A stretch of 64,000 nucleotides of DNA from Tachypleus tridentatus (lineage: Eukaryota > Arthropoda > Merostomata > Xiphosura > Limulidae). Below the pieces are notes generated by a model. It did not search any database. It was not told the DNA's origin and saw only the letters and a program-made list of their open reading frames with translations. The stretch is from the NCBI RefSeq assembly GCF_004210375.1, contig NW_027467782.1, positions 35,949,771 through 36,013,770 of the forward strand, given 5' to 3'. A program made the translations under genes and the position numbers. Positions 2,122-24,553 of the stretch are shown piece by piece; positions within the stretch are counted from its first letter, which is position 1; each line of letters begins with the position of its first letter.

Positions 2122-2166
2122 TTTTTTGTCTGCAAGATGGTTGGTTGTGTCAGTTTTGCTTTAACA

Positions 2167-2396
2167 TCATATTATTTTCTCTTTATTAAACTTATTTGTC
2201 GGGGCCTTCTCACATTCATGGATCATTGAAACAGCTTCTAAAATATCTAATTCAGTAGGGGTGAACTTTTCAGTTACAAGCGCCTGGTCTTCTAGCATTG
2301 TATAGGCAAAACTCCACAAGACCCGAGGACGCGGTTTTCAGGGCTTTCCATTCGCCCCGGGCTTTTTCATTCACGTTGCAGAAACAGCAAATAACG
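2167..2396 (-). pseudogene. cytoplasmic exon of Ig-TM protein gene, copy 1 (decayed)
   Basis: Homologous to the exon at 19505-19661. Shared peptide segments include FCNVNEKARG and, in another frame, LEDQA. Relative to copy 2 there are two single-base deletions, near 2340 and 2300, which break the frame. The splice acceptor that reads TTTAG in copy 2 reads TTTCG here, so normal splicing into this exon should fail. After LEDQA this copy reads VTEKFTPTELDILEAVSMI and continues to a stop at 2167-2169. Copy 2 has a different tail, apparently because of about 65 bp of extra sequence. I do not recognise the family. Confidence 0.6.
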
Positions 2397-2890
2397 CGAA
2401 ACAATAACAAAAAATAAATGAGAAATAAAACGCGATTTTGTCTTTCAGTTTTCTATATAAACAATACTATAAAGATCAACTCTAAATAGTTGTCTTTTTT
2501 TGTTTTTGTTTTTTCGTAAACAAACAAATTTACAAAAAACACTTGATAAATCACCATATAGAAGTTTGGTGAGAAGTGTTAACTATAACTGAAAAGTTTT
2601 TTGACCTCATAAATAAGGTTAATTAAACATATTCAGCTTTACTAGGTTCATATTAGATTTTCACAAATTAACTACCAAAGGGGCACTGACATTTTCAAAT
2701 ATCCAACCCTACTATTCAATTAAAAGATAATTGGGTATTGAGGTCAGATGCTCTCTCACCCTGTTCCACATACTTTAATTATCAAGAACTGGAAGATAAC
2801 ATGTAGCTTACCACAAAGCAATAAGACAAATCGAAATTAGTGCTAGCTCTTCCATCCACCAAGGATATCTTACAACTGCTGGTTTGGAGG
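2280..2890. repeat. segmental duplication block A, copy 1
   Basis: This block aligns by eye to 19546-20187 along almost its whole length, including the cytoplasmic exon, the intron and the 3' part of the TM exon. Homology stops abruptly at about 2888, where the sequence turns to GGCCCAGGGAACG. The divergence suggests an old duplication. Confidence 0.8.
2812..2888 (-). pseudogene. TM exon fragment of Ig-TM protein gene, copy 1
   Basis: This is the 3' part of the exon found whole at 20110-20239. It reads RYPWWMEELALISICLIAL and ends in the splice donor GTAAGC. The upstream half of the exon is missing because homology breaks at 2888. The retained hydrophobic stretch would be the first half of the membrane span. 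With its 5' splice-in end lost, the fragment is probably not used. Confidence 0.6.
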
Positions 2891-2904
2891 CCCAGGGAAC
2901 GTAA

Positions 2905-3905
2905 CCTTGAGAGAGAGAGTTGTTTTAAAACCGTTTTACACATTGTATCGATTACATAAAACAGAAAGAAAACTTCAAATGTAACTTAATAATAATAGTA
3001 ACGTGTATAATTCTTTAAACTAAAAAATTATCTTTATTTAACATATTAAAAAATAACAATTAAATAAATATGATATTTCTTACATTTATAATATATTTTC
3101 ATATTAAACATTGATAACAACCTTTACAATTTGTCAACTGTATATATATTTTCTTTACACTTTAAACAGATAATTAGCGAAGAAAAATAATGGTCATTAT
3201 ATTATTTGAGCTCCTTACTAGTAGACAAGTAATAGAGTTATGTAATAACTCCAACTATATAGTTATATAACATAAAATCAGTTAGGTTTTCCAACATATT
3301 TACATTGTTAGACAATATAGCAAGAAAACTACTGGCTTTTCATTCCGAACATACGTTATTGAACTATATAAGAAAAAATCTCAACGTTTTCTTTACGATA
3401 ATTTACATATTATACAACTCAGTAAAACACAGTTAGTTAAATCAACTTCGATTCACTTAACTTGTAAGGATATGTAACACAAACACAGTCTTTCCATTGA
3501 CTACTTAATAAAGCTAATTTGTTATTTCGCTATTCAGTTACCTTATTAAGTTTCATAATTAACTTCTTCACTTGTTATGTTATGGTACATAATTCCTTTT
3601 TACTATCGAATCGTATCCACTGAATGGTAGTTTTTTGCGTCATTACAACACTATTAAAAACAGTAATTTTTACAAATTTTTCTTCACTGTAAATTTTCCA
3701 GGTAAAGAACCATGGTATTTTGACCACAAACACTGAATGAACGTACGTCACTGCTCGCGAAGTTTTTCGCTTACTTGGTAACAATTCTTTCTAATAGTTG
3801 TATTTAGAACTTATGAAACGGTGCTAACGTTTTGATAATCCAATGTTATTATAATCGTATTTTAAAACATTTGTTTTGTATTTGGACAAATTACTTTACT
3901 TTATT
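2905..3905. other. unannotated AT-rich DNA
   Basis: No gene or repeat was recognised. The 69-codon minus frame at 3575-3784 has no motif that I can place. Confidence 0.55.
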
Positions 3906-3908
3906 ACA

Positions 3909-4175
3909 CTGGCCCGGCATGGCCAAGCGTGTTAAGGCGTGCGACTTGTAATCTGAGAGTCACGGGTTCGCATCCCCGTCGCGCGTAAACATGCTCGCCC
4001 TTTTCAGCCGTGGGGCGTTATAATGTACAGTCAATCCCACTATTCGTTGGTAAAAGAGTAGCCCAATAGTTGGTGGTGGGTGCTGTTCACTAGCTGCCTT
4101 CCTCCAGTCTCTCAATTCATATTTCAGGACATCTAGCCCTCGTGTAGCTTTTACATAAATGTTCCAAACAAATTT
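3909..4175 (+). repeat. tRNA-derived SINE (family 1)
   Basis: Starts with GGCCCGGCATGGCCAAGCG and ends with the CTCGTGTAGCTTTTACATAA segment. The 3' half is more diverged than in most copies: the usual CTAGTCTTACACTGCTAAAT is replaced by unrelated bases near 4110-4130. No clear target-site duplication. Confidence 0.9.
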
Positions 4176-4439
4176 TCTTGACATCGACAAAATTACTCAA
4201 TTTCCGTTTGTGCTAAATGTTTTCGACGTAATTATAGACTAATCATCAGAGAATATTTACGATTATTATCGTCAAGTGAAGTTTGTTTTCTGTGGAATGA
4301 AATATCAACTGTGAGTAAAATGTATGTCCGATTTTGTAAATACTGGTGTGATTATGGAAGTTTATTTTGGGCATAAGCCGTTACATTTGAATGGTTTAAA
4401 ACAGGTTTTCACGTCTTTTAAATTTGTGTCCATTTTAGT

Positions 4440-4600
4440 ACGAAGTGATGGTACATATCTGCAGAGTAGGTTAGTCCTACGGTAGAGCTCTGCATTTCAG
4501 ATCTGTACAATAAACAAAACATTTTCTTACTGCAAGATGTAGGCCCATTATAAGAGTGACAGTTTATTCCTTATGATGGACGACAAGCGCAGCCGATCGA
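4440..4600 (+). repeat. old SINE relic (family 3)
   Basis: A diverged element sharing the core TTATAAGAGTGACAGT with relics near 6.7 kb and 50.4 kb. The ends cannot be set. Confidence 0.35.
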
Positions 4601-4699
4601 CTGTGTTTCCTCTTGTCAGTAATTTAGCGTAAGGGCCAACGACAAATAAAATTATCAAACTAAATAATAAGCATACGATGTCACCAAATTAAAGACTAC

Positions 4700-4770
4700 A
4701 TTATAGTGAACCTAAGAAGGCCGAAACGTTGTTCTCAGTCTTATTAGTAAAGTTGTATGAAACAAATATT
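4700..4770 (+). mobile_element. Penelope-like element 3'-end relic
   Basis: Contains CCTAAGAAGGCCGAAACGTT followed by GTTCTCAGTCTTATTAGTAA. This is the same terminal motif seen after the reverse transcriptase fragment at 21.9 kb and in the palindrome at 39.4 kb. No coding part is attached. Family assignment rests on the shared terminal motif. Confidence 0.5.
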
Positions 4771-4807
4771 TTAGAATATTTTAATATCTAACAAACAGCC
4801 TCTGTTG

Positions 4808-4935
4808 GTAGGGTCCTCCGCTAGTACAGCGGTAAGTTTACGGATTTACAACGCTAGAATCAGCTGTTCGATTCCCGTCGTCAGCAGATAGACCGATGCG
4901 ACTCTCAAAAAGAAAAATACACAAACATAAACATA
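4808..4935 (+). repeat. short tRNA-like SINE (family 2)
   Basis: Contains GCTAGTACAGCGGTAAGTTT and a B-box-like GTTCGATTCCCGTCG, and ends in an A-rich segment near 4910-4935. Plus-strand relative of 1998-2121. Confidence 0.75.
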
Positions 4936-5084
4936 CGCTTGATTGGAAATATCAGTTTCAAGAATTTCAGGCCGTGTTAACATTAAAACTCAGAATCAAC
5001 TGCGAGAATTCTCGCAGCGAATCCAACAGAGATTTCCTGTTCTGTAACTTTGTGCTAAAACGTACAAACGAGTCGTTCGATTTT

Positions 5085-5182
5085 TAAAACAAAGCTAAAC
5101 ACCGGGCATTACATAGCTTATCTCCTGTGAGGAATAAAAACCCGATCCTTCTGTTGTAAATCCAGAAACTGATTCATTGACA
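5085..5182 (-). repeat. short tRNA-like SINE relic (family 2)
   Basis: Read on minus it has a diverged tRNA-like head, with GTAAATCC on the plus strand near 5156, and the tail segment AGCTATGTAATGCCCGG. More diverged than the copy at 4.8 kb. Confidence 0.45.
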
Positions 5183-5427
5183 AGAGGCAGGGGAACAAAT
5201 AAAAGACTCTATAATCGAAACATTTTTTATTATCTTTCTCTTTTAAATTAAAAGTTTTTCTTTTATATATAAAGCAGTTAGTATTTGTGCTAGTAAATCA
5301 TATTTTCTTAATTTTCCACGTGAACTATTTGTTTCTGAAATATCCTTTCGTCGACGAGGACTATTTTCTTTTTCTTATCAAGAAAGGTATACCTTTAAGA
5401 AATATTAGACAAAGACTTCATAAAAAC

Positions 5428-5578
5428 TTCTAGATGCTGCTGCCCTCTAGTGGGTAAAAGCTATGGTTACAATTTACAACGCTATAATCTGAGGTTCAAT
5501 TTCCCTCGATGTAAAAGCCCAAATGGCCTATTGTATAGCTTTGGGCTGAAAATAAACACACAAACAAATCGTGGTCGT
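5428..5578 (+). repeat. short tRNA-like SINE (family 2)
   Basis: Contains CCCTCTAGTGGGTAAAAGC, then TTTACAACGCTATAATCTGA and a B-box-like GGTTCAATTTCCCTCG. It ends in an A/C-rich tail (ACACACAAACAAATCG). The tail region between the box and the end differs from other family 2 copies. Confidence 0.55.
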
Positions 5579-5579
5579 A

Positions 5580-6565
5580 GTTACTGCGAGTATTACAAGC
5601 CGATTATTATCATAATTATTTTATTTTTCACATACATTTTCAAAACCTTAACATAACACTCACTAACACCCAGGTTTATTGTTCTTGTATCATTTGTGGG
5701 GCCCCATTCTCTGTGACTACGGAGTAAATTATGACCCAGATTTCGAACATTTAGAATTGATGTGTTTTTTTTTCGTGCTCACTCGTGCGAGGCGCCTTCT
5801 ATTGATGAGAAATTACTTTTACATCGAGGAAGTATTTGGAGTTGGTTGGTTTTTCACATTTTAATACAAGTGTTTCTTCAAAGTTTAGCTCAAAGAAAAT
5901 GTCAAATCAAGTCTAATGTTGAAAGATGTTTATTTACAGTACAAGTAATTTATAGTGTAGTGGAGACGCAATGTAGTCAGATGACTTGTTACACAGTTCA
6001 GACAGTATAATAGTCAAAAATATGAAGTGACACAATGTGTTACAAACCTGTACTTGTAAATACTCAACCCAAGGAACTAACATAGTACGTTTAAAAAGTT
6101 ACAGTTGTAGTAATCAACTATCAGATGCAACACAGTGTGTGTGCTTCAATTTTGCAATTGAATAATCATCCGATAAAATCTGTTTAAACTTTCAAACTGC
6201 TGCCATACTGAGACAGATCATAAACTAAAAATACTCAACAACGATTTGTTGTTTTACAGCCGGATAATGGAAAGTGTCTACGTTACTTTTCCTCTACCCA
6301 CAGCTTCTAAGTCACTTTCATTACTTGACAGAGGGTCTGGTTACATTCTTCACGAAAGAACTTTATATGCACGTGTCAGTAAAGGAAAATATTTACCTAA
6401 CTTTATGCCCTTTTGTTAATGTACACATACGCTTTGTTCGACCCGTAAGACTCGCTGATTGTTATTAGATTTTCCAGGCTTCAGATACTCAGATGTCATT
6501 TTAATATTACGTCACTGTAAACCTTCTCTTTCCCCATATCATAATAGTTTACTTTACAACTCTTT
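5580..6565. other. unannotated DNA
   Basis: No recognisable genes or element ends. Several frames of 60-82 codons occur, but none shows family motifs. Confidence 0.55.
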
Positions 6566-6567
6566 CT

Positions 6568-6760
6568 ATTAGATTTTGAGTCCGGGCTAGTAGATCTCTG
6601 GATTTTGGAGCTATCGAATCTACTTCGATTCCGCGCGATACTGTAAAATATTCCCTACACTATAATATATTGGTGCGTTATAAGAGTGACAGTGTGTATC
6701 CCTTAGCTGGCTTTGCATCGCCTGGTGGTTAGTGCCCTAGTTTTGTCCAATGTACTGATG
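6568..6760 (+). repeat. old SINE relic (family 3)
   Basis: Contains GTCCGGGCTAGTAGATCTCT, a weak B-box-like CTTCGATTCCGCGCG and the body motif GTGCGTTATAAGAGTGACAG. The motif order matches the relic at 50.3 kb, which suggests an older tRNA-derived family than family 1. Confidence 0.45.
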
Positions 6761-6983
6761 TAAAATATTGCTAAACAAACAAAACCACACCACACGCCAG
6801 CTTTCATTGATAATTGCTGAACAAACATGTCGCATCCAATTAGTAGATTAGTAGACCAAATCATACCAAAATGATCAGTTCGGCTAAGGTATAAATAGGA
6901 GGCATATATTTATTAAAATCAGTTTCAATTTGATTCTTTTGCTCTACACATATTCAAAACGTCTTTATCTTCATTCTGAAGTC

Positions 6984-7530
6984 ATGGCTGATTGTCGAAA
7001 ACGCAAAGTGCTTTCACTAGAAGATCGTGTGAAAGTTGTAAAGTTGTTTGAAGGCGGCAAAAGCTGCAGAAAAGTTGCAGAATCCATGATCGTTGGAAAC
7101 ACACAAATACAGAGCATAGTAAATGACAAAGAAAAATAATGTCACTGTGGCAAAATGGTGCTAACACTGGCCAAAAATATCAGAAAGCACGGAAAACAGT
7201 CTACACGGAGCTGAACGAAAGGTGTGGGACTGGTTTTGTGCCGCACGTGCCAAACCACCTTGTTACTGGCGTAGCCTTGAAGGAATATGCACTGATGAAA
7301 GCCACAGAAATTAATCTGGATGACTTCACTGCCTCCAATGGTAATTATTTAGGCCTATAAATTCCAGCTTGATAACCCAAAATGTTTTAATATGCATTCA
7401 CTTTTGTTTTACTTGACTTGAATAAGTTTAAGTTACTTTTGCAAATTTTAACGCGTGTTTGTTTTCTATATTACAGGCTGGCTAGAGGCTTTCCAAAACG
7501 CAACAATCTGTCCATGAAAGACCCATGGAA
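6984..7530 (+). pseudogene. Tigger/pogo transposase relic, N-terminal part
   Basis: The frame beginning ATG at 6984 reads MADCRKRKVLSLEDRVKVV and then FEGGKSCRKVAES, the N-terminal helix-turn-helix of Tigger/CENP-B-like transposases. The second DNA-binding module follows (VWDWF, then TGVALKEYALMKATEI and DDFTASNG). After a spliceable gap (GT at 7341, AG at 7476) the text resumes as WLEAFQKRNNLSMK, the usual order for this family. At least three frameshifts are present: one near 7137, and a pair near 7222 and 7245. The DDE catalytic core is absent. It lies inside the intron region of the copy 1 Ig gene. It is dead. Confidence 0.75.
7341..7476 (+). other. possible intron within the Tigger relic
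   Basis: The coding text ASNG and WLEAF, contiguous in related transposases, is separated by 136 bp that begin GTAATT and end TTACAG after a T-rich tract. Either this is an intron of the transposase gene or the splice-like ends arose by chance around an insertion. Confidence 0.45.
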
Positions 7531-7788
7531 CATAGTACTTCACATGAAGCCACATGTAACAAAATAATACGTCATATAAAGGCGGAGATCTCAAATTAAT
7601 ACCTTGCTTGAAATCAGATTTATCAACATGGTATCTCGTAAGAAGGCTGATACATGAATATAGTACCTCACATGAAAGCAGATGTTTCTAACAGCAGTGT
7701 GAATACAGAAACCAATATCTTCAAATGATTATTCCCTGTGTTCCACATACTTTAATTATAAAGAAATTGAAAATAACATGTAACTTAC

Positions 7789-7900
7789 CACAAAGCAATA
7801 AGACATATCGAAATGAGTGCTGTCCACCAAGAGTATATTACAGCTGTCAACATCAACATCTTCAAATAATATGCCGACCCACTTAGCATCTTGGAGTTGG
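7789..7900 (-). CDS. TM exon (first type) of Ig-TM protein gene, copy 1
   Basis: On the minus strand the sequence reads TAVIYSWWTALISICLIAL and ends in the donor GTAAGTTAC. It is clearly related to the TM exon at 20110-20239, which has PWWIEELTLISICLIAL. The 5' edge is uncertain: several AG dinucleotides are possible and the matching frame stays open back to about 7920. With the fragment at 2812-2888, this shows that the TM exon and its 3' flanking intron exist in two versions within one unit. They could be alternative exons or a leftover of an internal duplication. Its copy 2 counterpart is cut at about 22000 by the Penelope-like element. Confidence 0.45.
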
Positions 7901-9594
7901 ACAATATCACCCATTACTGGAGTCCTGATTAGATGTATTAGTATATGGACGAACAAAGAGTGTAGTATTGATGGTAACATTTAAAGTAATTATATGTCGA
8001 TACGTTTACCAATACTTATTCATACCATACTTCAACATCGACATTTCCTCTCATGAAAATGAAGAGAAACTGATTTCATGTTATCTCTAAAGTAATAATT
8101 CCTTGTAAGTACTTTTCACACAATTGTAATAATCTATTTTATGCATTTATATTTCTGAGGAACCAACTTGAAGCTAATAAATTTTGTATACATTCTACAA
8201 TGGGTAATTTAAACCTTTTTATTAGATAATTCATATATAGTTCGACGTTTCTAGGTTATAAAGCAATGAGGAAGGAGATTTGAGATAACGGTGATATAGA
8301 GAAACCTTAGTCAACAACACGATACTCACCCAGTTGTGAGTTTTACTTAAATTCTTGTGAAAAATAAAGCAAATACAATACTAATGTCATTTATAAAATA
8401 CTTTATGGCAACTTCCACGTATTTTACGTCAGAGAAACAGGCCAAAACGCAAAAACAACTTTCATGTAACACAAAGAAATAGAATCTCACGTTTTAAATT
8501 TAACAGTGCAACTCAAATAAATATACTACATGTAACATTAAAATTCCAAACAGAGAATCCAGCATCATTAGACGATAAACCAAATAATTCCTTGTAATAC
8601 AAGAGCAAACACACGTTAAATCAACATAAAGAAACACTTTTATATCTATATTAATAAACTTCAGTAAATCTTGTTCGGTGTATTATAATTTGAAGATGAT
8701 ACTTTTACTTTATAAGATTTTATAACTTATAAAATATTCTGAGAGCACAAAGAGTAACGCAGCTAGTATTAATAGGAAATTACACGAAGGTTGTTAAAAA
8801 CTATCATATCAAAATAAGACAGTTCAATTATCATTAAATTATCATTATCATTCATTATCGAATTTTAGTGGTAGTTAAACTATATTTCAAATGTTTTACA
8901 AACGATAATTAATGACAGAATTAATTTTCATTTATATTTGTATGAACATCCGACTTGGTTGTTTATTAAAACATAATACGTTGATATAAACTTTTCATTG
9001 TGAAATAATTAAGTTAAAAATGATACTATTGTCATCATAAGCTTACGTATACATGAGCAATATAAATAATTTTGTAGTCAATACACATATTGAAACGAGC
9101 AAATTTGCACATTTTCACTAACATAAGGTCTGAATAAAACAACATATGAATCAAGATTTATATGTAGTTATACTAAAGCTATAAAAATATTTAGAAATGA
9201 GTACTTTTTCGAGATTTGCGACTGTAAATCCCTTTCACTTATCAGCCCCCAAATATATTCTCACATCGTGTTTTCGTCATATGCTCCCAAGTCACAAAAG
9301 CAAAGTTTGAAGACAATAGGCCTTTTCCATTTACTTTAGGCATAAGCAATTAGGAAAAAACATTTTTTGCCCAGGAATAAGAAAAGGTAAAAATTTTCTT
9401 ACATTGTGTAATCTTACGTATACACAGGTAATTATTTTTTAAATCAATACACATGGTGAGTGAAATATCAAACGAAAAGGTTATGGCTGAAAGAAATTTA
9501 AAAGCAAGATGGGCGATATCAATTTAGATATTATTCCTGTTAAGTTAGTGTAGTTTAATAAATAAAAATATGGTCTAAAAAACCATGAATTTAC

Positions 9595-9840
9595 CTCTGA
9601 CATCATGTTTGTAATCACCTTCACGATTTTTGCATGTGTAAATTCCCGCGTCTTCAAACTGGATGTTGGTTAGCACTAATTTGCCACCGTATTTTATTTG
9701 CGTTCTCTCACTATTAATAACTCGTTCATTGTGATTTGAGTACCAAATAACTGGTTCTTCTCTCTCTCTTTTATGAGCTTGGTTTGAACATATTAATGTA
9801 AGAGTAGAACCACGTTCAGTTTCGTAGACGAATTTAATAC
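9595..9840 (-). CDS. Ig-domain exon of an Ig-TM protein, copy 1 (open)
   Basis: An 82-codon exon encodes a single immunoglobulin-like domain. The first cysteine lies in STLTLICSNQ, the core tryptophan in PVIWYSN, and the second cysteine in the hallmark FEDAGIYTCKN. Strong splice signals bracket it: acceptor TGCTTGTTTCAG and donor AGAG|GTAAAT. Both junctions are phase 1, the usual arrangement for extracellular Ig exons. Read without splicing at the 5' side, the frame starts at 9895 with MANYTQLFYIFGSFLLVSG, which resembles a signal peptide. Either that is a real short leader in the same exon or it is coincidental intron sequence. The TM exon phases fit downstream: a phase 1 exit joins the copy 2 TM exon in frame. 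I cannot name the family. An I-set-like adhesion or recognition protein is the likely class. Confidence 0.75.
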
Positions 9841-9899
9841 CTGAAACAAGCAGGAAACTACCGAAAATATAAAATAATTGAGTGTAATTAGCCATTGAA

Positions 9900-10135
9900 A
9901 TCTCTCTGCACTGTACTCTTTGTAAGTCACTTTCTATATTGTTTCTAAGTGAAATATCAGTGTTACTATGCGCATAAAGTATTCTTGTTTGAATGACGTC
10001 GTGAACTGAAGTAACATTGTTAGGTGGAAAACGTTTTTTAACAATAATGATTGCAAAGTTTATTGTTTTTTGTAGTGCGAAAGACGCTTGAACTGAGAAA
10101 TTATAATAAAAAAACTATTGTTCTCAGATGTAAGA
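9900..10135. other. unannotated DNA upstream of the Ig exon
   Basis: No feature recognised. If the 9895 methionine is used, this stretch would include the promoter or 5' UTR, but no clear promoter motif is visible. Confidence 0.4.
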
Positions 10136-10139
10136 AATA

Positions 10140-10880: not shown

Positions 10881-10884
10881 TGTT

Positions 10885-11325: not shown

Positions 11326-11330
11326 GGAAA

Positions 11331-11912
11331 CTTGGCTTGTTTGTTTCTGACCTTCGCGCAATCTACCTGTGCTTGTCGTCCCTAATGTAGCAGTCTAAGA
11401 CTATATAGAAGGCAGCTAGTCATCATCACCCACTGCCAAGTTAGTGGGCTACTCTATTACCAACAGATAGTGGGATTGACCGTCATATTATAACGCCTCC
11501 ATGGTTTAAAGGGCGAGCATGTTTGGTTTGTTTGTTTGTTTTGAATTTCGCACAAAGCTACTCGAGGGCTATCTGTGCTAGCCGTCACTAATTTAGCAGT
11601 GTAAGACTAGAGGGAAGGCAGCTAGTCATCACCACCCACCGCCAACTCTTGGGCTACTCTTTTACCAACGAATAATGGGATTGACCGTCACATTATAACG
11701 CCCCACGGCTGAAAGGGCGAGCATGTTTGGCGAGACGGGGATGCAAACCCGCGATTCTCAGATTATGAGTCGCACGCCTTAACGCGCTTGGCCATGCCGG
11801 GCCCTAAAATCGAAGTTTAATACGTATCAGCATGTTTGGTGTAACGGGTATTCGAACCCGCGACCTTCAGATTACGAGCCAAACGCCTTAACCACCTAGC
11901 CATGCCGGACCA
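11331..11912 (-). repeat. SINE (family 1) interrupted by a second SINE
   Basis: The body of an older minus-strand copy occupies 11331-11530. Its tRNA-like head resumes at 11828-11912 (B-box-like GGGTTCGAATACCCGTTACA on minus). The text AGCATGTTTGGT is present on both sides of the interruption, which looks like the target-site duplication of the younger copy. Confidence 0.8.
11526..11804 (-). repeat. nested SINE (family 1)
   Basis: A nearly full-length copy with a clean (TTTG)n-type tail on the plus strand side and a head ending GGCCATGCCGGGCC. It lies inside the older copy. About 25 bp of non-SINE sequence (11805-11828) lies between the head and the flanking duplicate, so the inserted segment has a short 5' extension. 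Confidence 0.9.
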
Positions 11913-11914
11913 AG

Positions 11915-13360: not shown

Positions 13361-13370
13361 TATTCGTTAA

Positions 13371-14528: not shown

Positions 14529-16133
14529 ATGGCGAAGCGCAAGCTTGTATCGATAGAAACTAAAATTGCAGCAATAGAAGTTGAAAAAAAGTTAAAACAA
14601 AACAGAAATAGCAAAAGCATTTTATGTGCCTCTGAACACTTTGTCAACATGGTTGAAAAATAAAGAGGCCATATTGTCTTCTCGAGACAACTTTTGTCCC
14701 AATAGAAAACGCATGCGAACTGCAAAACATTCTGACCTAGAAGCGGCATTGCTTCTGTGGTACAAAGCAAAGGCAAAAAACTTGCTGATCAAATGGGAAT
14801 CACTGACTTTGCATGAGTGATGGGTGGTTAACCCGATTCAAAAAAAAGACACGACATTCAATTTCGTACGATCTGTGGTGAGTCTGGTAGTGTAGAACCA
14901 GAGCAAACAAACCAGTGGACATCAACAACACTGCCACGCCTGCTAGAAAACTACAGCCCACGGGATGTCTTCAACGCAGATGAGTCTGGCTTATTCTTTA
15001 AACTTCTGCCAGACAAGTCTCTTGTTATCAAGGGAGACTCCTGTCACGGCGGGAAGCGAGCGAAGGAGCGGCTGTCTGTTTTGGTATGCGCCAATATGGA
15101 CGGCACCGAGAAGCTTCCTTTACTTGTCATAGGTGAGTGTCAAAAGCAGGTAAAAATATTTTCCTGTGTTTTCTATAGAAGTTGTTATTTTATGATTTTC
15201 TTCAGATTATTGACATGTAAATGTTTCATTTTAACTTCAAGACATTAACCATGTACATTTTCTTTCTTTTTTTTTAGGAAAGGCAGCAAAACCGCGTTGC
15301 TTCAAAGACGTCAAAACCCTGCCAACACCATACAAAGCCAACAAGCGAGCTTGGATGACTTCAGATATATTCACCGAGTGGCTGAGAGAACTTGACCGAA
15401 AGTTTGTGCTGCAGAAAAGAAAGGTCCTTATGATAATTGACAACTGCCCCGCCCACTCCAACCCCACTGGACTTAAGGCCATCAAGCTGGTGTTCCTGCC
15501 TCCCAATACCACAAGCAAGACACAGCCCATGGACCAAGGCATCATCGCCAATCTAAAACATCATTACCGCACCCTACTGCTACAGCGTCTTATTGATTCA
15601 ATAGACAATAAAGTGTTTTCACTGTGACTGTGCTTGAAGCCATGCGACTGCTACGCTCTGCCTGGTCATTGGTAAAGCAATCAACCATAGCCAATTGTTT
15701 CAGAACTTGTGGCTTCTCCTCTCCAGAGCCAGCAGAAAACAGTGAGGACCCCGAGGATGACATACCATTGGACCAGCTCTTGACACGGCTGAATGACACT
15801 GGGTTTACGGTGAATGGCACAGCAGAGGACTACGAGACTGCTGATACTGATCTGATCACTAGCGCGCCCCTGACAGACAGTGATATTGTGGCCATGGTGC
15901 AAAATAAACAGACACCAGAAAATGACAATGAAAGTGAAGATGACGACAATGAGGAACCCCCCATCCCAACACATTCTGCAGTTCGTGAGATGTGCCTGCA
16001 ACTTCAGAGATATCTTGAACACCAGGCTAACGCAGAACAGCTTATCTCTCAAGTAAACATGATGGAGCGTTTTGTGACCAAGTGCCAGAGGGACAGCAGT
16101 TCGCAAAAAAGCATTGAGCCATATTTCAAGTGA
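14529..16133 (+). pseudogene. Tigger transposase (broken)
   Basis: The product starts MAKRKLVSIETKIAAIE, the N-terminal HTH of the CENP-B/Tigger family. It continues in another frame as AFYVPLNTLSTWLKNKEAIL and then the second DNA-binding module (ALLLWYKAKAKN). The catalytic aspartates are all recognisable: FNADESGLFF, MIIDNCPAHSN and PMDQGIIANLKHHYR. An acidic C-terminal tail with DDDNEEPPIPTH ends SIEPYFK at 16133. It is broken by a frameshift near 14600, a short deletion near 14790, a frameshift near 14845 and one near 15615. An intron at 15133-15277 interrupts the coding text between LLVIG and KAAKPRCF. Without these lesions the length would fit the family. It cannot make a full transposase as it stands. 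Confidence 0.85.
15133..15277 (+). other. intron of the Tigger transposase
   Basis: 145 bp with donor ATAG|GTGAGT and acceptor (T)n-AG|GAAAGG. Removing it joins LLVIG to KAAKPRC in the same reading frame, matching the uninterrupted family order. Confidence 0.75.
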
Positions 16134-16459
16134 CTCCAGTTAGACGTTCTTGCTGGTGTTTGTATCCTGTACATTATAATTACATATGTCTATATTATGA
16201 ATGTTATTTTTTTACATGCTTTTTTTACAAGTGCTGTTAATTGTCCTTTTGAATTTCATTAAATGTGTTTTAAGTGTTTACACACGTGTGACTTCTGAGT
16301 CTTTAATCCAATTACCGGTACTGCACCAGCCGTCAGTTATAGGGCCTACCATTACCAGACTTGGCTAGTGAATGAAAAAAAGTCCTTTTTAACGAACTTC
16401 TTTTGTAATGAACAATTCTCTTTGGTCCCTACGACTTCGTTACAACGAGAGTTTACTGT

Positions 16460-16545
16460 ATTTTATCTCAGGAATATCTGTGTTATAACTATTAGTTATT
16501 TTTTTATCATGGGGATAACGTATTATAGCCAGTAAAACTGAAATA
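16460..16545. repeat. unit of the dispersed ~45-bp AT-rich repeat
   Basis: Contains TATCTCAGGAATATCTGTGT followed by TATAACTATTAGTTATTTTT. It lies directly against the right end of the Tigger element. Confidence 0.5.
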
Positions 16546-16841
16546 GAAACCTTTATAACCCGAGCGTTTACGAGAGGTGGACCTTATTTCTTCTCGGGTA
16601 ATCTGGGAATGCCTTGTATAATTGAACGAGTTATATATAAAGATTTAGTTTAGTAACGTCATACAGGTCATCGAACTTTCCGGGAAGTGTTTATTTCACT
16701 GTGTAGTGTTGTAAGCGTCTCATTTCCCGTGCTATGTGGCAGATGTCTTATCAGTATATGAAAAGATGTTGGTGGTATTTTAACTTTGGATAAAATATGT
16801 GTGTGTTGTTATAAACTGTGTTTAGGTGTTTAAGTAAAAAA
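16546..16841. other. unannotated DNA
   Basis: Nothing recognised between the Tigger end and the minisatellite. Confidence 0.45.
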
Positions 16842-17096
16842 AAGTATAGATAACACCTGGAGTGATTAATAAAGATATGTTATATAAATCAAGTATAGAT
16901 AACACCTGGAGAGTGATTAATAAAGATATGTTTATATAAATCAAGCATAGATAACACCTGGAGAGTGATTAATAAAGATATGTTATATAAATCAAGTATA
17001 GATAACACCTGGAGAGTGATTAATAAAGATATGTTATATAAATCAAGTATAGATAATACCTGAAGAGTGATTAATAAAGATATGTTCATATAAATC
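16842..17096. repeat. 51-bp minisatellite, five copies
   Basis: Five head-to-tail units start with AAGTATAGATAACACCTGG and contain GTGATTAATAAAGATATGTT. Unit length varies between about 49 and 52 bp. Because most units are near 51 bp, a minus-strand frame stays open across them and repeats a 17-residue motif (NISLLITLQVLSILDLY). That frame is a by-product of the period rather than evidence of a gene. Confidence 0.95.
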
Positions 17097-17099
17097 AGT

Positions 17100-17452
17100 T
17101 TAAAAACAAGAATTATTTCATTAAAAAGTAAGTGAAGAATAAAATTATTTTTCTGACAGAGATAAAACTAATGGAGATCACTGATTCCTGGATCTAGATT
17201 AATTCAGAAACGTTGAACAGTGTTTAACTTGGTAACCCAATATGTTTCTATTTATGTTACTAAACTAAATATTTATATAATGCTCGTTCAATTATACTGG
17301 GCATTCCAGATTGCCCCTGAAGAAGAAAGGTCCATCTCTCAAAAGAGCTCGGGTAATAAGGGTTTCTATTCCAGTTTTATTAAGACTTCTTGGATCTACT
17401 TGTTTTTAGCACATCATGATTGTCGCCATTATTTATCTTTTATTTTACAAGA
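17100..17452. other. unannotated DNA
   Basis: An 83-codon plus frame (17220-17471) contains the text APEEERSISQKSSGNKGF, which I cannot assign. No splice sites or homology support it as a gene. Confidence 0.4.
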
Positions 17453-17454
17453 AC

Positions 17455-17542
17455 CTTATAATAACTATTAAGTATTTTACAGCCTAGGAATAACTGTATT
17501 ATAACTGTTAGTATTTTATATCCTACGAATAAATGTATTATA
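17455..17542. repeat. unit of the dispersed ~45-bp AT-rich repeat (two units)
   Basis: Two tandem units containing CCTAGGAATAACTGTATTAT and CCTACGAATAAATGTATTAT. The array ends at the mariner left end. Confidence 0.6.
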
Positions 17543-18380
17543 TCTGGTTGTACGGAAATAAATGTCGTTTTTAAATTGCGAAGTTTGAAAAAGTATAAAC
17601 CATTGTTGTAAAACATGCTTTAATCAAAGTGACAGCGATTTGCTTCAACACATTTCTGTCAACGTGTAACGATGTTGTTTATGTCCCTGTTGTACAATTC
17701 AGAGTCTCTATGGCCAATGAACTTCCTGAAAGCTTCTTCTGCAGCTGTTTCGTTTTTAAAGCATTTATTGTTCAAAAATTGTCAAAGTGCTTGAAGAAAT
17801 TAAATTCTGTAAGGTGAAGGTCTGGGGAATAAGGTGGATGAGGCAGAACCTCAATTACCAATTCGTTCAATTTTTGGAACGTCATTCTCAACAGGTATTA
17901 TAATACTGATTTTGTTGGCTTTCAGTTAGTTTGTGCGTAACCCACTTATCCAACATTTCGTCTTTCCAATCGTGCTAAGATAGTTGACAATGTTTGATTT
18001 GCTTGTGTCTAGGTTTTCTGCAAGCTCACGTACTGTTGTGCAAGGGTCTGTCTCAACTGCTTCCCTTAATGTGTTTTTATCTAAGAATGGCTTCCTTCCA
18101 CAACCTTCGTGGTCTTCAAGACTTTTATCTCCGTGTCGAAGCCTTTGGAACCAATGCCGAATTGTGCATTTAGTAACAGATCCATGGCTGAATGTCTGAT
18201 TGATGCTCCTATGTAGTTTCAGTAGCTTTTCGTCCAAGTTGTAAAGGAAAATCAGGCGATAGTCCTTCTTGTCCATGCTGCCTCGGATGTTGCGAAACTT
18301 TCTCTGAATAGAGATTAAACAGCAGATAATTAAGACACCTTACAAGCGACAAATGTTGGATTAAACCAACCAACCAACGA
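17543..18380 (-). mobile_element. mariner element, internally deleted
   Basis: A mariner-family DNA transposon on the minus strand, flanked by TA at 17541-17542 and 18381-18382. Its ends are imperfect inverted repeats: CTGGTTGTACGG on the low side and TTGGTTGGTTTAATCC read inward from the high side, both followed by an ATGTCG/TTTGTCG segment. The length is about 0.84 kb against about 1.3 kb for a complete mariner, so roughly 0.45 kb of the central coding part is missing. Confidence 0.75.
17600..18276 (-). pseudogene. mariner transposase, N- and C-terminal parts
   Basis: The intact 5' frame starts at 18276 with MDKKDYRLIFLYNLDEK. It includes the paired HTH region (HGSVTKCTIRHWFQRLRHGD) and the linker SLEDHEGCGRKP, then AVETDPCTTVRELAENL. 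It stops at 17926, shortly before the expected catalytic core. After the internal deletion the C-terminal part is visible in another frame: FQKLNELVIEVLPHPPYSPD. The following LHLTEFNFF has E where mariner normally has its third catalytic D. The first two catalytic aspartates lie in the deleted part. Non-functional. Confidence 0.8.
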
Positions 18381-18414
18381 TATGTTACTCAATATTCAGC
18401 TTCTAAATGTCACC

Positions 18415-18490
18415 ATGATAATTCGGTGAGTTGTTTTTAATCCTAGGATTAACTGTATTATCATCCTAAGCTATTTTTAACTCTGTACAT
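18415..18490. repeat. unit of the dispersed ~45-bp AT-rich repeat
   Basis: Contains ATCCTAGGATTAACTGTATT, just beyond the mariner high end. Confidence 0.5.
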
Positions 18491-18494
18491 TTAT

Positions 18495-18890
18495 GGATGA
18501 ATAATGTTTTACTAGTTGACGAAATTAATTACTTTTAATTACAGCAAGCTGAGCAGTTTGATGTTCTGGTCAACTGTGCAGGAATGGGGTCAAAGCAGCT
18601 GTTCGATTACAAATACTTGGCATCGATGCTCGGACAAATAAATCAAGATAGTTCTATGACACTTTTGTTAACTTAGAAGGTGGAACAGTGAATAGAGAAA
18701 AAATATTTCTACTATAGATTTCATTTAGAAAATGAAAATAAATTATTTGTAATCCATATATGGTAAACAAAATACAGTATAAACGTTTATGTTAACACCG
18801 TTAGACGAAGTTTTTTTTTCTTATATATACCATGATTTCACGTGCATAATTACTATCCGTTGGCTATTTCTTCAAAATTATGATGTATTG
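18495..18890. other. unannotated DNA
   Basis: No gene or repeat recognised, apart from a 33-bp SINE tail fragment just beyond it at 18893-18925 (minus). Confidence 0.45.
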
Positions 18891-19099
18891 TTTGTTTTGA
18901 ATTTCGCACAAAACTACACGGTTATTATTAATAGTAATTACAAATGATGATTTACATACAATAGTTTACAAACTTATAAAGAATACTGAGTTTTATATCT
19001 GGTCTAGAACTGAATCTTTTATCGACGTTCATAAAGAACGAATAAACTCTTTGTTGATACACCTGTACACTTCTCTTGACGGCAAGCTGAGATTGAAGC

Positions 19100-19330
19100 T
19101 GGTTGTTTTTGTTGGGTTTTTTTAATTTTGCACATAGCTACACCAGGGATATCTGCACTAACCGTCCCTAATTTAGCAGTGTAAGACGAGAAGGAAGGCA
19201 AATAGTCATCACCACCCGTCGTCAACTCTTGGACTACTTTTCACCAATAAGTAGTGGGACTGTGTGCCACGTCATAACGTCCCCACAGCTGAAAGGGCGA
19301 GCGTGTTTGATGCGACGGGGATTCGAAGTT
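19100..19330 (-). repeat. tRNA-derived SINE (family 1), 5'-truncated
   Basis: Tail and body are present, with the head cut just after the GATGCGACGGGGATTCGAAG segment. It is more diverged than most copies. Confidence 0.85.
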
Positions 19331-19504
19331 TGAAGCACACGTATGTTTCATCAGTGACAATATTTAACGTACTTTTAGAAATTCTAACGTGCGAAAGTTA
19401 CTGAAGTTAAACAGTTTCTAAGGTTCGAAATCTGTAAACGTTCCTGGTCAGCTTCTGTAGTTTTCCAGTTAACAAGCGTTAATCACAATTATAGCTGCCG
19501 AGGC

Positions 19505-19661
19505 TTATTGTATACTGACTGTAGCTGACCAAGAATAATTTTCTGCCTGGTCTTCTAGCTTTGTATAGGCAGAAACACCACAAGAACCGAGGACGCGGTT
19601 TTTCAGGTCTTTCAATTTGCCCCGGGCTTTTTCATTCACGTTGCAGAAGTAACAAAGAACG
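19505..19661 (-). CDS. terminal cytoplasmic exon of Ig-TM protein, copy 2 (open)
   Basis: The acceptor TTATTGTTTAG is followed by a phase 2 exon of 157 bp ending in TAA. It encodes VLCYFCNVNEKARG, then LKDLKNRVLGSCGVSAYTKL, then EDQAENYSWSATVSIQ. The first residues complete the membrane span begun in the exon at 20110-20239 (LISICLIAL plus a cysteine plus VLCYFC). The rest is a basic, then mixed, cytoplasmic tail of about 45 residues with no signalling motif I recognise. The copy 1 counterpart has lost its acceptor AG and has two frameshifts. The tail after EDQA differs from copy 1. Confidence 0.6.
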
Positions 19662-20187
19662 CTAAACAATAATAAAATAATAATAATAATAAATAAAAAA
19701 TAAATGAGAATTAAAAACGCGACTTTTTTCTTCCACTTTTCTATATAAACAATACTATTAAAGATTAACTTCAAATAGTTGTCTTTTTTGTTGTGTTTTT
19801 TTCGTAAGCAAACAGATCTACAAAAACACTTGATGAATCACCATATATGTTTCGTAAAAAGTGTTAACAAAAATTGAAAAGTTATTTTGACCTCATTTGT
19901 AAGGTCAATTAAACATATTCAGCTTTACCAGGTTCATATTGGAGTTTTCACACATTAACTTCCAAAGGGGCACTGAACACACTTGACATTTTCAAATATC
20001 CAACCCTACTATTCAATTAAAAGATAATTTGGGATTGAAGTCAGATGTTCTCTTACCCCTGTTCCACATACTTTAATTATCAAGAACTGGAAGACAGCAT
20101 GTAACTTACCACAAAGCAATAAGACAAATCGAAATTAGTGTTAGCTCTTCTATCCACCAAGGATATCTTACAACTGTAGGTTTGGAA
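19546..20187. repeat. segmental duplication block A, copy 2
   Basis: Counterpart of 2280-2890, same orientation. Homology continues through the cytoplasmic exon, the intron and into the TM exon. Confidence 0.8.
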
Positions 20188-20239
20188 GCATCTTTTCGGT
20201 ATCCTCGAGTACAGTTGAGATTCTCGGCTGGAACATACA
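20110..20239 (-). CDS. juxtamembrane/TM exon of Ig-TM protein, copy 2 (open)
   Basis: A 130-bp exon with acceptor TTTTCTCCAG and donor GTG|GTAAGTTAC. Entered in phase 1, as expected after an Ig exon, it stays open: VYVPAENLNCTRGYRKDASK, then PTVVRYPWWIEELTLISICL. It leaves in phase 2, exactly the phase the next exon needs. NCT is a potential N-glycosylation site outside the membrane. The hydrophobic run LTLISICLIAL starts the single membrane span. The agreement of three exon phases is the main argument that this is a real gene structure. Confidence 0.65.
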
Positions 20240-20555
20240 CTGGAGAAAACAACAGAGCGTTAATATTTTTAGCACGTTTTGTGTCACCGTTTGAATTTTA
20301 AGTATTTTCACAATGAGCACGACGCACTAGTTATAATATAAATTATGACTCACTCTGTAAAATAACAACATAAATGTTCCTTTCGTGAGAAAATTAAAAC
20401 GTGTTGAGCTTCAAAACAGTTTCTTAACAGTAGACTTTTGTTTCTTTATGTACTTCCTAATGGAGTTAACAAATGAAACTAATCACACAGACTTGGAAAC
20501 ACGATCTTTTTTTTTTTTATATTAGTTATATCTTTAGGTACATTTGATTTCCCTT
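20240..20555. other. intron-like DNA upstream of the TM exon
   Basis: No coding signature. Contains a poly-T run at about 20509-20518 near the start of the Penelope-like element. Confidence 0.45.
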
Positions 20556-20559
20556 GGTG

Positions 20560-21990
20560 TTTCCCTTGCAAAACACTTAATCAATGAGAGGAATAAATAC
20601 AATCAGAACAATGAGATACATAAATACACAAATAAATACACAAACATTATCCAAAATTTACAGAAAAACTACTTAAAGCCATGTTGAACACAAAATACAA
20701 AGAACTACATGACTTACAAAAACCAAAAATGAACCGAGACCATCAACTGGCATGCTGCATTAAACCAGAGATTTACGGACCTATACAACGAAACATAAAT
20801 CAAATCAATACTAAGAAAGACAGAGACAAAAAGATCTGCCACAACAAAAACTAAAAAAAACTAAGATGTAAACAACAGAAAAGACACCAAAACGACAAAC
20901 CGTTGGCTAACCTCATAATTAACAGATCCGACCGTCAATTAAACACAGACGAGAAACAACTACTTAACAAAGGACTCAACTTCGCAATAGCACCTAGGTA
21001 CATTCCAACCATAGAAATCAAAACATGTTTAGAAGACCTAGCCTGGAGACTTGTGATACTTTCTACAGAAAACAAAAACAAGGGAAAAACCAAAAACAAC
21101 CAACAGAAAGAAGACAACTTAGATAATTTTATTGACATCCAACAGCCAAACATCCCAGGTAAAATTACAAATTTATATTTTCCAGAAACACCTAAAAACA
21201 ACATCTTAAACGACTTTTTCAAAGAATTTTCTCACAAAACCATCAACATAATTTCACAAAACTAAAAAACAACCTTACAAAAAGAGACATTAATTCCATT
21301 AAAAACCTAAAACAAGGCAGAAACATAAAAATTCTAAAAAAACAGATAAAGGTAACGCTATAGTAATAATGAACACGAATGAATACATACAAAAATGAAT
21401 AACATCCTATCAGACACGAACAAATTTAAACCAATACACACAAATCCAACAAAGACACACGAGACGCAACTGAACAAATTACTACTACAAATGAAAAAAG
21501 CCAACACAATTTCACAAACACTTTATTCCTACCTACGTGAAACCGACTCACGCACACCGCAAATATACGGCATCCCCAAACCTCATAAATCAGATTGTCT
21601 ATTACGACCAATAATGCCAACATATGAATCGTTTAATTACAATCTTGGTAAATATATAGCATGGGCATTCTCCAAATATGTAACATCAGCCAGCTCATTC
21701 ATCAAAGACTCTTTTAATTTCAAGTCTTATCTAAATCAACTTAATCATAAAGCCTTAATGGCCAGTTTCGATGTTATATCCCTCTTTACAGAAGTTCCAA
21801 CTACTGAAGCCTGCAAGTTAGCCTTAGAACTCTATATCCGAGACCCTAATCCAAACATGTGGTCAGCTTCCAGTCAGTTACCTCTTTCTTTGTGAACCTG
21901 ACGATGACCGAAGAAGGTCGAAACGTTGTTCGCTCTTCTATGTAAAATATTTTCTCAACACAAACGAGCCGTTTTTGCAAATAAAAATTA
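20560..21990 (+). mobile_element. Penelope-like retroelement, truncated
   Basis: Plus-strand reverse transcriptase text of the Penelope-like class. It includes the upstream region with LNTDEKQLLNKGLNFAIAP, the segment TPQIYGIPKPHKSDCLLRPI, and motif A with ASFDVISLFTEVP. The reverse transcriptase stops soon after motif A and passes directly to the 3' terminal motif of the family at about 21898-21960. The rest of the reverse transcriptase and the usual GIY-YIG endonuclease are therefore absent. The coding part is broken in several places. It inserted into the TM exon (first type) of the copy 2 Ig gene, at about 21990-22005. Confidence 0.8.
21898..21925 (+). ncRNA. hammerhead-ribozyme-like core at a Penelope-like 3' end
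   Basis: The order CTGACGA, then a four-pair stem GACC/GGTC with loop GAAGAA, then GAAACG matches the catalytic core layout of hammerhead ribozymes (CUGANGA, stem II, GAAA). Hammerhead motifs are known in Penelope-like elements. The cleavage-site side is unclear: after a short CG/CG stem III the expected U-H dinucleotide is not obvious, so activity is doubtful. Confidence 0.5.
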
Positions 21991-21999
21991 TCTTCCAAT

Positions 22000-22040
22000 A
22001 GTATATTATAGCTGTCAATATCAACATCTGCAACTTGGGT
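22000..22040 (-). pseudogene. TM exon (first type) remnant, copy 2
   Basis: Matches the 5' part of the region around 7840-7880 (shared minus text includes TTGACAGCTATAATATACTA). It is cut off at about 22000 where the Penelope-like element begins. Confidence 0.55.
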
Positions 22041-22639
22041 TGGGCAATATCACCCATTACTGGAGTCCTGATTAGATGGATCAGTATATGGACGAACAAA
22101 GAGTGTAGTATTGATGGTAACATTTAAAGTAATTATATGTAGATATGTTTACCAATACTAATTCATCCCACACTTCAACATCGACATTTCCTATCATTAA
22201 AATTAAGAAAAACTGATTTCATGTTATCTCTGAAGTAATAATTACTTGTAAGTACTTTTAACATCATTGTAATAATTTATTTCATGCATTTATATTACTG
22301 AAACTCACTTGAAGCTAATAAATTTTGGAGACGTTCTACAATGGGTAATTTAAAACTTTTTATTAGATAATTCATATATAATTCGACGTTTCTCGGTTAT
22401 AAAGCGATTAGGAAAGATATTTGAGATAACGGTGATACAGAGAAACCTCAGTTAATAACGCGATACTCATCCAGTCAATAACCCCAAATACAATAAACAA
22501 AATACTTAAATTCTTGTAAAAAATAAAGCAAATACAATACTAATGTCATTTATAAAATACTTTATGGCAACTTCCACGTATTTTACGTCAGAGAAACAAG
22601 GCCGAAACTCAAAACAACATGTAACACAAAATGTTTCTA

Positions 22640-23250
22640 TTTTTCTCTGTAAATATGTACTCTACTTAAACTAAAGACATGGATTTAAATGTATTCATAA
22701 AGAATGTGTAAAAACAACGTATATGCGAGTCATTTGAAAACACTGAATAACAAGAATAAGAGAATCAAATTAAAAGAAAACACCAGTTTTAATAAATGAA
22801 GTTTTAATTAAAATTTCTTTTAACCAAAGAAATTATTCAGTCACATTTATCCCAGTTTAAACATTAAATCATCGTGTAATATCATTGATTCGCCAACTTA
22901 AACATTTTCTACCCATCCTGTACATATTTTACATAAAGAAAAAATATTTTTTATTGCTATAGATGAGACCGACTAACGGGTTCTAGCATTAAAGAAATCT
23001 CCTATAACGAGATTTTCGCTCATCACTGACTTAAAATCAGTAATGAACATATTGAAAAAAATGAGGCAGAAATATTTGCGAGCAAATGTGACGTTAAACA
23101 TAATTATTAGGCTTCACTAACCTCTGCACTCCCCATCAAAACTTTATACTATTAAAGAAACATCCGTTTATGGTAAGAACGAAGTTTAGAACGAAAATAT
23201 CTATTTTGTATACGTAAAAATAAATGTAGAGCTAAATTGTTTACGTTTGT
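22640..23250. other. copy-2-specific unannotated DNA
   Basis: AT-rich and absent from copy 1. No element ends are visible. Confidence 0.45.
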
Positions 23251-23251
23251 G

Positions 23252-23364
23252 TGTTTTCTATTAGCAAAGCCACGTCGGGCTATTTGCTGAGCTCCCCGAG
23301 GGGATTCGAACCTTTAATTTTAGTGTTGTAAATCCGTAGACTTACCACTGTACTAGCAAGGGGA
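23252..23364 (-). repeat. short tRNA-like SINE (family 2)
   Basis: On minus, GCTAGTACAGTGGTAAGTCT leads into TACGGATTTACAACAC and the tail TAGCCCGACGTGGCTTTGCT. A good match to the copy at 1998-2121. Confidence 0.8.
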
Positions 23365-24310
23365 AAGCTAAGCTAGAAGAAAAAAGGAATAGAACGGCAG
23401 TGGTATTAACAGTTTTGAAACTACTGTATCAGAGAGTATCTTGTTTACTTTTAACTTCGTTAACTACCAAGCTCTGTGAGAGAAAAATCAGAAATTCCAT
23501 AGCTCTAACCAATGAATACAAATAAATATTACAAACATACAGTAAGATTGATAAAATATTGGTTATCGAATTTTTAGTGGCAGTTAAACTATATTTCAAA
23601 TGTTTTACAAACGATAATTAATGACAGAATTAATTTTCTTTTTTATTTGTATGAACATCCGGCTTGGTTGTTTACTAAAACATGACACATTGATATGAAG
23701 TCTTATTGTGAAATAATTAAGTTAAAAGTGATACTATTGTCATTATAATCTTACATATACATGGGCAATATAAATAATTTTGTAGTCAATACACATGTTG
23801 AAACGAGCAAATTTGCACATTTTCACTTACATAAGGTTTGAATGAAACAACACATGAATCGAGATTTACATGTATTTATACTAAAGTTATGCAAAAATGT
23901 TTAGAAATACTTTTTGAGATTTGCGGCTGTAATGTAAATCCCTTTCACGTATTAGCCCCAAATATATTCTCCCGTTATGTTTTCGTTATACGCTCCCAGG
24001 TCACAAAAGCAAAGTTTAAAGAGAAGAATAGGTCTTTTCCATTTACTTTAGGCATAAGCAATTAGGAAATAGCATTTTGTGTCCAGGAACAAGAAAAGGT
24101 AAAAATTTTGTTACATGGTGTAATCTTATGTACACCAAGGTAATTATTTTTATAATCAATACACATGGTGAGTGAAATATCAAACAAAAAGGTTATGGCT
24201 GAAAGAAAATTAAAAACAAGATTGACGATTTTCCATTTAGATATTATTTCTCTAAAATTGGTATCATTTAATAAATGAAAATATGGTCTAAAAAAAAACT
24301 TTGAATTTAC

Positions 24311-24553
24311 CTCTGACATCATATTAGTAATGACCTTCACGATTTTTGCATGTGTAAATTCCCGCGTCTTCAAACTGGATGTTGGTTAGCACTAATTTGC
24401 CACCGTATTTTATTTGCGTTCTCTCACTATTAATATCTTGTTCATTGAGATTTGAGTACCAAATAACTGGTTATCCTCTCGCTCTTTTATAAGCTTGTTT
24501 TGAACATATTAATGTAAAAGTAGAACCACGTTTAGTTTCGTAGACTAATTTTT
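24311..24553 (-). pseudogene. Ig-domain exon, copy 2 (decayed)
   Basis: Homologous to 9595-9840. It keeps LTLICSKQ-like text, PVIWYSN and FEDAGIYTCKN and the donor AGAG|GTAAAT. It contains two in-frame stop codons, one just before PVIWYSN and one just after NREGHY. Its 5' end, including the acceptor, is replaced by a SINE at about 24554. Confidence 0.8.

Follow-up and report, generated by a model that had tools for sequence, protein, structure and literature searches.

Two decayed immunoglobulin gene copies in the horseshoe crab Tachypleus tridentatus as probable members of a large candidate receptor family

Horseshoe crabs are a classic model for invertebrate innate immunity. A stretch of 64,000 nucleotides from the genome of Tachypleus tridentatus (C19:35949771-36013770, in the following called the window) carries two damaged copies of a gene segment that encodes an immunoglobulin (Ig) domain, a transmembrane (TM) segment and a cytoplasmic tail. 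A preliminary description stressed the complementary decay of the two copies, and the question arises whether the pair is a peculiarity of the locus or the relic of a more widespread gene. We consider it probable that the two copies are dead, rearranged members of a large receptor family of horseshoe crabs. An intact gene of this family would encode a single-pass surface protein with an Ig tip that likely binds a ligand and a body that likely signals.

Both copies lie on the minus strand, copy 1 (WIN1, 2.2-9.9 kb) downstream and copy 2 (WIN2, 19.5-24.6 kb) upstream. Alignment of the window with itself yielded three collinear minus-strand blocks, each with an expectation value (E) of 0, namely 8855-9835 with 23563-24551 (89% identity), 7827-8475 with 21995-22630 (84%) and 2282-2891 with 19545-20189 (85%). 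This likeness is far beyond chance, and the preliminary description was right in recognizing one gene segment twice, at a distance of about 15 kb, with Ig, TM and tail exons that fit together in phase across the copies. For comparison, 20 loci were fetched, comprising 18 full-length loci (L025-L042) selected for having Ig, TM and tail matches and two loci resembling copy 2 (L043 and L044); exon ends were set from splice signals and by comparison of the copies.

In copy 1, exon 1 is intact (9595..9895, minus strand) and encodes a signal peptide and the Ig domain, with 100 codons and one base open from the ATG at 9895 to a GT donor that starts at 9594. The part from 9595 to 9840 had been correctly recognized as an open frame, but the frame continues beyond the CAG at 9841 to the ATG. 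Since the leader ahead of the Ig domain is kept in all eight loci L001-L008, one of which is that of the window, and in all 18 loci L025-L042, this CAG is probably no acceptor, and signal peptide and Ig domain most likely share one exon. The Ig domain of copy 1 scores above the Pfam cut-off for Ig_3 (E 1.8e-8), I-set (E 1.4e-6), Ig_2, ig and V-set, and it is identical at three other C19 loci; a single-sequence AlphaFold model of it reached a mean predicted local distance difference test (pLDDT) value of 50.6, a fold quality too poor for use. The remainder of copy 1 is heavily damaged. The TM exon, as judged by alignment with copy 2 and by comparison with the full-length locus L032, is a remnant (2812..2905, minus strand) that has lost its 5' part and retains an open frame, and the cytoplasmic exon is a dead remnant (1831..2396, minus strand) with stops, frameshifts and CG instead of AG at its acceptor, the latter two defects having been described before. 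A decayed third fragment, consisting of the end of the TM exon and the next intron (7721..7847, minus strand; matching 2744-2878 and 20041-20177), lies at a rearranged junction. The search of the window revealed neither a stalk nor an Ephrin_rec_like exon in copy 1, and tblastn detected no further tail exon in the window. Judged from its sequence, copy 1 is incomplete and dead.

In copy 2, the Ig exon (24311..24551, minus strand) is without signal peptide and contains the two stops reported earlier, both TAA. The place of the signal peptide is taken by a repeat resembling a short interspersed nuclear element (SINE; 24566..24791, plus strand), and the same junction is present in L043, L044 and L076, i.e. 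in all four copy-2-like loci that were read across it. Both stops recur in L043 and L044, which share 98-99% identity with copy 2 over 5.5-6.7 kb. The common repeat and the common stops place the decay of copy 2 before the spread of the pair. The notion that the complementary decay is something special is therefore not supported, as damage of the copy 2 type is common to other copy-2-like loci. Eight places on C19, the window included, have a copy-2-like and a copy-1-like Ig exon paired in the same order and on the same strand at a spacing of 15-25 kb, and a further candidate pair is located on C1; the pairs were recognized by identity and position, and the sequence was read for part of them.

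The TM exon (20110..20239, minus strand) and the tail exon (19505..19661, minus strand) of copy 2 are indeed open and flanked by AG/GT signals. However, the former is not one exon of the family but a fusion of the stalk and the TM exon, which are separate and approximately 1.85 kb apart in full copies, and the Ephrin_rec_like exon between them is deleted. The tail exon follows the family down to about 19545 and then runs through unrelated sequence until its stop, so that its last 12 codons are foreign to the family: of 113 matches only that of the window itself passes residue 42, while the others end at approximately residue 39, and the frame of exon 5 continues for more than 100 further residues in 13 of the 18 full loci, namely those in which this exon is uninterrupted. 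A deletion of about 1.85 kb fused the stalk and TM exons and took out the Ephrin_rec_like exon, the end of the tail being lost afterwards. As the Ephrin_rec_like domain belongs to the full gene and is absent from both window copies, it was invisible to the preliminary description. Copy 2, too, is incomplete and dead, and at least its stops and the loss of its leader were copied along with the module. That the form without cysteine module is a working short variant is unlikely. The fused exon is open in L013-L016 and exon 5 in L014-L016, its frame ending early in L013, but L014 has lost the donor that should follow the fused exon, and L076, the Ig exon of the locus to which L014 belongs, lacks a signal peptide owing to the repeat. 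Frames on the plus strand (20855-21895), situated between the Ig exon and the TM exon of copy 2, presumably resemble a Penelope-type reverse transcriptase, for which Pfam provided no support. A repeat that both copies carry in the intron behind their Ig exon also occurs as a lone copy at 33279-33611.

The complete gene would consist of one exon for signal peptide and Ig domain, a stalk exon, a cysteine-rich Ephrin_rec_like exon, a TM exon and two tail exons. In L032, these lie at 441-741 (E1), 6015-6077 (E2, stalk), 6262-6423 (E3, Ephrin_rec_like), 7875-7992 (E4, TM) and 8412-8848 (E5, tail) in locus coordinates, with the second tail exon (E6) about 2 kb beyond E5. The phase at the exon end is 1 for E1, E2 and E3 and 2 for E4. 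The order of the exons is evident from their neighbourhood. Within 12 kb upstream and on the same strand, 93 of 150 E3 exons have an Ig exon, compared to six downstream and zero and two on the opposite strand, and E6 follows E3 within 9 kb on the same strand in 28 pairs, other arrangements being absent among 150 E3 and 68 E6 rows. Ig, E3 and E6 occur in a row at 20 loci, two of which have a stop in the Ig exon. A TM exon follows in all 18 full loci, which had been selected for it, and in each of these units a single Ig exon accompanies the body. Ig and TM exons are thus parts of the same family, as had been proposed, and not of different ones; the description as a single family of single-pass Ig membrane proteins, with its exon phases, stands. 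For L071, one of 57 among the 150 E3 exons without a type A or type B Ig match (see below), no Ig exon was seen in the upstream sequence that was read.

The L032 model passes the Pfam cut-off for I-set (26.2 bits, cut-off 23.7) and ig and narrowly fails that for Ig_3 (29.9 bits, cut-off 30), and the Cys-Trp-Cys core and the DxGxYxC motif of Ig domains are present in the alignment. Ephrin_rec_like (PF07699) is matched with 42.2 bits by the exon alone and with 39.4 bits by the full model, with a cut-off of 23.1. Fibronectin type III (FNIII), kinase and ephrin-binding domains were not detected in the L032 model by Pfam at E up to 1. In the model, the TM helix is accompanied by a Cys-rich juxtamembrane stretch, and the tail, about 280 residues long, carries a YTKL motif. 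A tail containing a death fold or a kinase was considered, and neither exon 5, exon 6 nor the full model gave a convincing Pfam match for it.

The assumption that the family may be larger elsewhere in the genome was borne out by searches covering the 2,167-Mb assembly with its 205 contigs; where 150 matches were scored, the counts are lower bounds. The assembly also yields collinear exon matches to coagulin (best E 1.5e-25), a family not known outside horseshoe crabs and without a match in 14 control genomes, which agrees with its origin from a horseshoe crab. With the Ig domain of copy 1 as query, 117 of 150 scored matches (315 candidates) had at least 75% identity, and 100 of these 117 were free of stops. 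Ig exons of this kind, termed type A, are 77-100% identical to the Ig exon of the window. A second Ig type, type B, is about 50% identical to type A, scores above the cut-off only for ig among the Ig profiles and begins with a different leader at the corresponding position, where 14 of the 16 loci read have an ATG. At least 58 rows were assigned to type B or B-like fragments, ten of them with stops (150 scored of 275 candidates), after exclusion of rows already in the type A table and of second fragments of the same loci. The other exons are equally abundant, with 150 scored of 442 candidates for the TM exon, 113 matches of 135 candidates for the first tail exon, 150 scored of 441 candidates on 14 contigs for the Ephrin_rec_like exon (a stop in five of the 150) and 150 scored of 367 candidates for E6, of which 68 were taken as open and nearly full length. 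The gene is hence present in more than 100 copies, some of them apparently intact, forming a candidate family of recognition receptors. C19, which with 70 Mb makes up 3.2% of the assembly, holds 49 of 118 type A Ig matches (at least 70% identity) versus 3.8 expected by length, an excess whose binomial tail is overstated because the copies have spread in clusters and are not independent. Further clusters are located on C5, C6, C1, C9 and C10, and C19 could be a special chromosome, for example a sex-linked one. E3 exons with slightly different frame lengths of 71, 73 and 81 amino acids, e.g. at C9:124567780, C1:41220972 and C6:130953307, suggest further subfamilies.

Eleven of the 18 full loci are without stop or frameshift in E1 to E5, and the splice dinucleotides tested are kept in all 18. 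In an alignment of 12 loci, exon 1 has diverged by 3.4% between copies, compared to 9.4 and 9.7% in its flanks, and E2 and E3 by 2.6% and 3.0%, compared to 4.3-5.0% in the surrounding introns. Selection was assessed on the 18 loci. Counted by distinct changes, the ratio of nonsynonymous to synonymous change (omega) over five exons is 0.39, the true frame being the lowest of the three in each of them, and 300 intron windows read as codons gave a median of 0.68 and a minimum of 0.42. We read these values as moderate purifying selection on the exons, with many copies now decaying.

The Ig tip and the body of the protein differ in age. Between types A and B, the synonymous divergence (dS) is 0.51 in the Ig domain and 0.13 in the E3 exon only a few kilobases away, as estimated from six type A genes, one of them with an Ig stop, and four type B genes. 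Since the gap is found in dS, faster amino acid change does not explain it. The corresponding ratios of nonsynonymous to synonymous divergence (dN/dS) are 0.62 for Ig and 0.46 for E3, and positive selection as the cause of the A/B divergence of the Ig domain is not supported by the former value. In addition, a B or B-like Ig exon lies upstream of 16 E3 exons whose match to the type A query is 75-94%. Within type A, the body of the mosaics L037 and L028 is 99% identical to that of other units, while their exon 1 region reaches no more than 95% identity with the other 17 loci. The simplest explanation of these findings is recombination or conversion between units, which would leave Ig types of greater age on a body that is younger and more uniform.

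Several observations weigh against the reading as a receptor family. Seven of the 18 full loci contain a stop or frameshift, and as these loci were chosen for completeness, the proportion of 11 in 18 is biased upward and is not a rate for all copies. E4 and E5, with a divergence of 5.9%, are no lower than their introns (4.8-5.5%), and the omega of the exons relative to that of introns indicates no more than moderate constraint; by pairwise counts, one shifted frame of E1 (0.39) is even lower than the true one (0.50). Among four more diverged type A loci that were read, only L069 has kept the ATG leader. Diversifying selection is unsupported, given that dN/dS of the Ig domain stays below 1 for comparisons inside type A and inside type B as well as across the two. 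In an alignment of 12 Ig sequences the stretch after the first Cys is the most variable and changes in length, and the segment that follows the second Cys ranks among the most conserved, in contrast to a classical hypervariable loop.

How the units spread bears on whether copy number reflects the gene itself or its vehicle. Compared with their flanks included, L031 and L032 match over approximately 14.7 kb on the L032 side, save for a 2.9-kb stretch found only beside L031, and probes from both flanks recur near many copies with 83-100% identity (40 candidates scored each, short side matches aside). Duplication of units of about 15 kb or more may have spread the gene over 14 contigs with a strong excess on C19; the reported genome duplications of horseshoe crabs (PMC7210998, PMC7815833) could, by our reasoning, not alone explain more than 100 copies so similar. 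The recurrence of such large units, including introns and flanks, on many contigs, the excess on C19 (with the copies not being independent) and the seven broken loci are also what would be expected if the gene were the passive passenger of a large mobile or satellite-like unit, with most copies neutral. We consider this doubtful, as the divergence of exon 1 is far below that of its flanks, and some E3 frames are still open where protein identity to the query has fallen to 75%, as are some E6 frames at 56%, although many E6 exons below 70% have stops. Furthermore, only one of seven unit frames scanned with Pfam is transposon-like, a THAP frame beside L031 in the stretch that is not in L032. 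The close similarity of some units might also point to an assembly artefact, in which many copies are duplicated haplotypes or misplaced repeats: L029, L031 and L040 are 100% identical (rounded) over 9.9 kb, and close same-strand pairs of equal identity occur. Most of the 18 full loci, however, differ by 2-11% from L031 and carry different insertions, and the 18 together lie on six contigs, which makes this explanation highly improbable.

With respect to function, the concentration on C19 would suit a family for gamete or germ-line recognition that was amplified on a sex-linked or other special chromosome, and the Ig domain is weakly similar to the sperm Sp38 family, below the Sp38 cut-off. 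Such weak similarity is expected of any Ig domain, and clusters are also present on five other contigs; we regard this explanation as unlikely. Under the favoured reading of the pair as dead members of a receptor family, the Ig tip would bind a ligand of foreign origin or one supplied by another individual or cell, and the shared body would signal; recognition is the most likely role because of the copy number, the maintained Ig types and the architecture. A further-reaching and less likely reading is that horseshoe crabs possess a germline repertoire, so far undescribed, of several hundred Ig-tipped receptors, a large part of which would be encoded on one chromosome; recombination would shuffle old tips between units and homogenize the body, and the system could serve non-self or inter-individual recognition independently of Dscam. 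At this size, a family of membrane receptors in which a cysteine-rich neck carries an Ig tip would be a new candidate for cell-surface recognition, and it provides a natural example of a gene with introns that was amplified massively and recently.

The window contains a number of other elements. A broken DDE_1 transposase in overlapping frames (14832-16133, plus strand; Pfam DDE_1 E 8.7e-30 for the middle piece) is presumably Tigger/pogo-like, and a fragment of Mos1-type HTH_48 (mariner-like; Pfam E 4.7e-6) is located at 17926-18339 on the minus strand. An exon-like frame at 28113-28406 (plus strand) is similar to SLC22 organic cation/carnitine transporters (PDB OCTN2, E 4e-8; no Pfam match). 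Element fragments at 61697-63367 (plus strand), with an endonuclease-reverse transcriptase domain at 63065-63367 just below the cut-off (E 6.1e-6), are assumed by us to stem from a long interspersed nuclear element (LINE). One repeat family, which we take to be SINE-like and tRNA-like and for which ARAGORN and Rfam found nothing, is present in many copies in both orientations, at 7-263, 3911-4110, 11363-11803, 19108-19327, 24566-24791 (the copy at the Ig exon of copy 2), 26811-27084, 43244-43890 (an inverted pair), 46985-47257, 48951-49226, 52554-52805, 53392-53672 and 54965-55238.

A published description of the family was not found among the top-ranked literature results or by a term search of the main texts of PMC7210998 and PMC7815833; the words 'immunoglobulin' and 'ephrin' have no occurrence in the main text of the former. 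Its section 11 names lectins, protease inhibitors and fucosyltransferases as amplified immune genes of horseshoe crabs and mentions no Ig family. Among them is carcinolectin-5b, described there with 79 genes in tandem immune clusters (PMC7210998). It shares with the family studied here the lineage-specific amplification in the same animal group, but it represents lectins in tandem clusters and not an Ig receptor. Proteins with Ephrin_rec_like modules (PF07699), such as Eph receptors, ELAPOR1 and thyroglobulin, have the cysteine-rich module in common with our model, which, however, combines one such module with one Ig domain; lacking a detectable kinase and ephrin-binding domain, the L032 model is ruled out as an Eph receptor. 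The chelicerate sDscam genes, from the same subphylum, likewise place an Ig tip in many variants on a shared kind of body (PMC4835542, PMC5775551). According to these papers, sDscam variants are tandem 5' cassettes spliced to one constant region, and the proteins have further Ig and FNIII domains, whereas each unit read here has its own body with one Ig and no FNIII found. An identity with sDscam is ruled out by the lack of detected FNIII and of a shared constant region in the units read. By anatomy, the family is comparable in style to the Alr genes of Hydractinia, many clustered single-pass Ig-superfamily genes and pseudogenes with at least 41 loci (PMC11067881). As far as that account goes, the Alr genes form few clusters in one large region and encode proteins of low overall identity, in contrast to the horseshoe-crab units, which are distributed over 14 contigs, include an Ephrin_rec_like module and have type A Ig exons 77-100% identical to that of the window.

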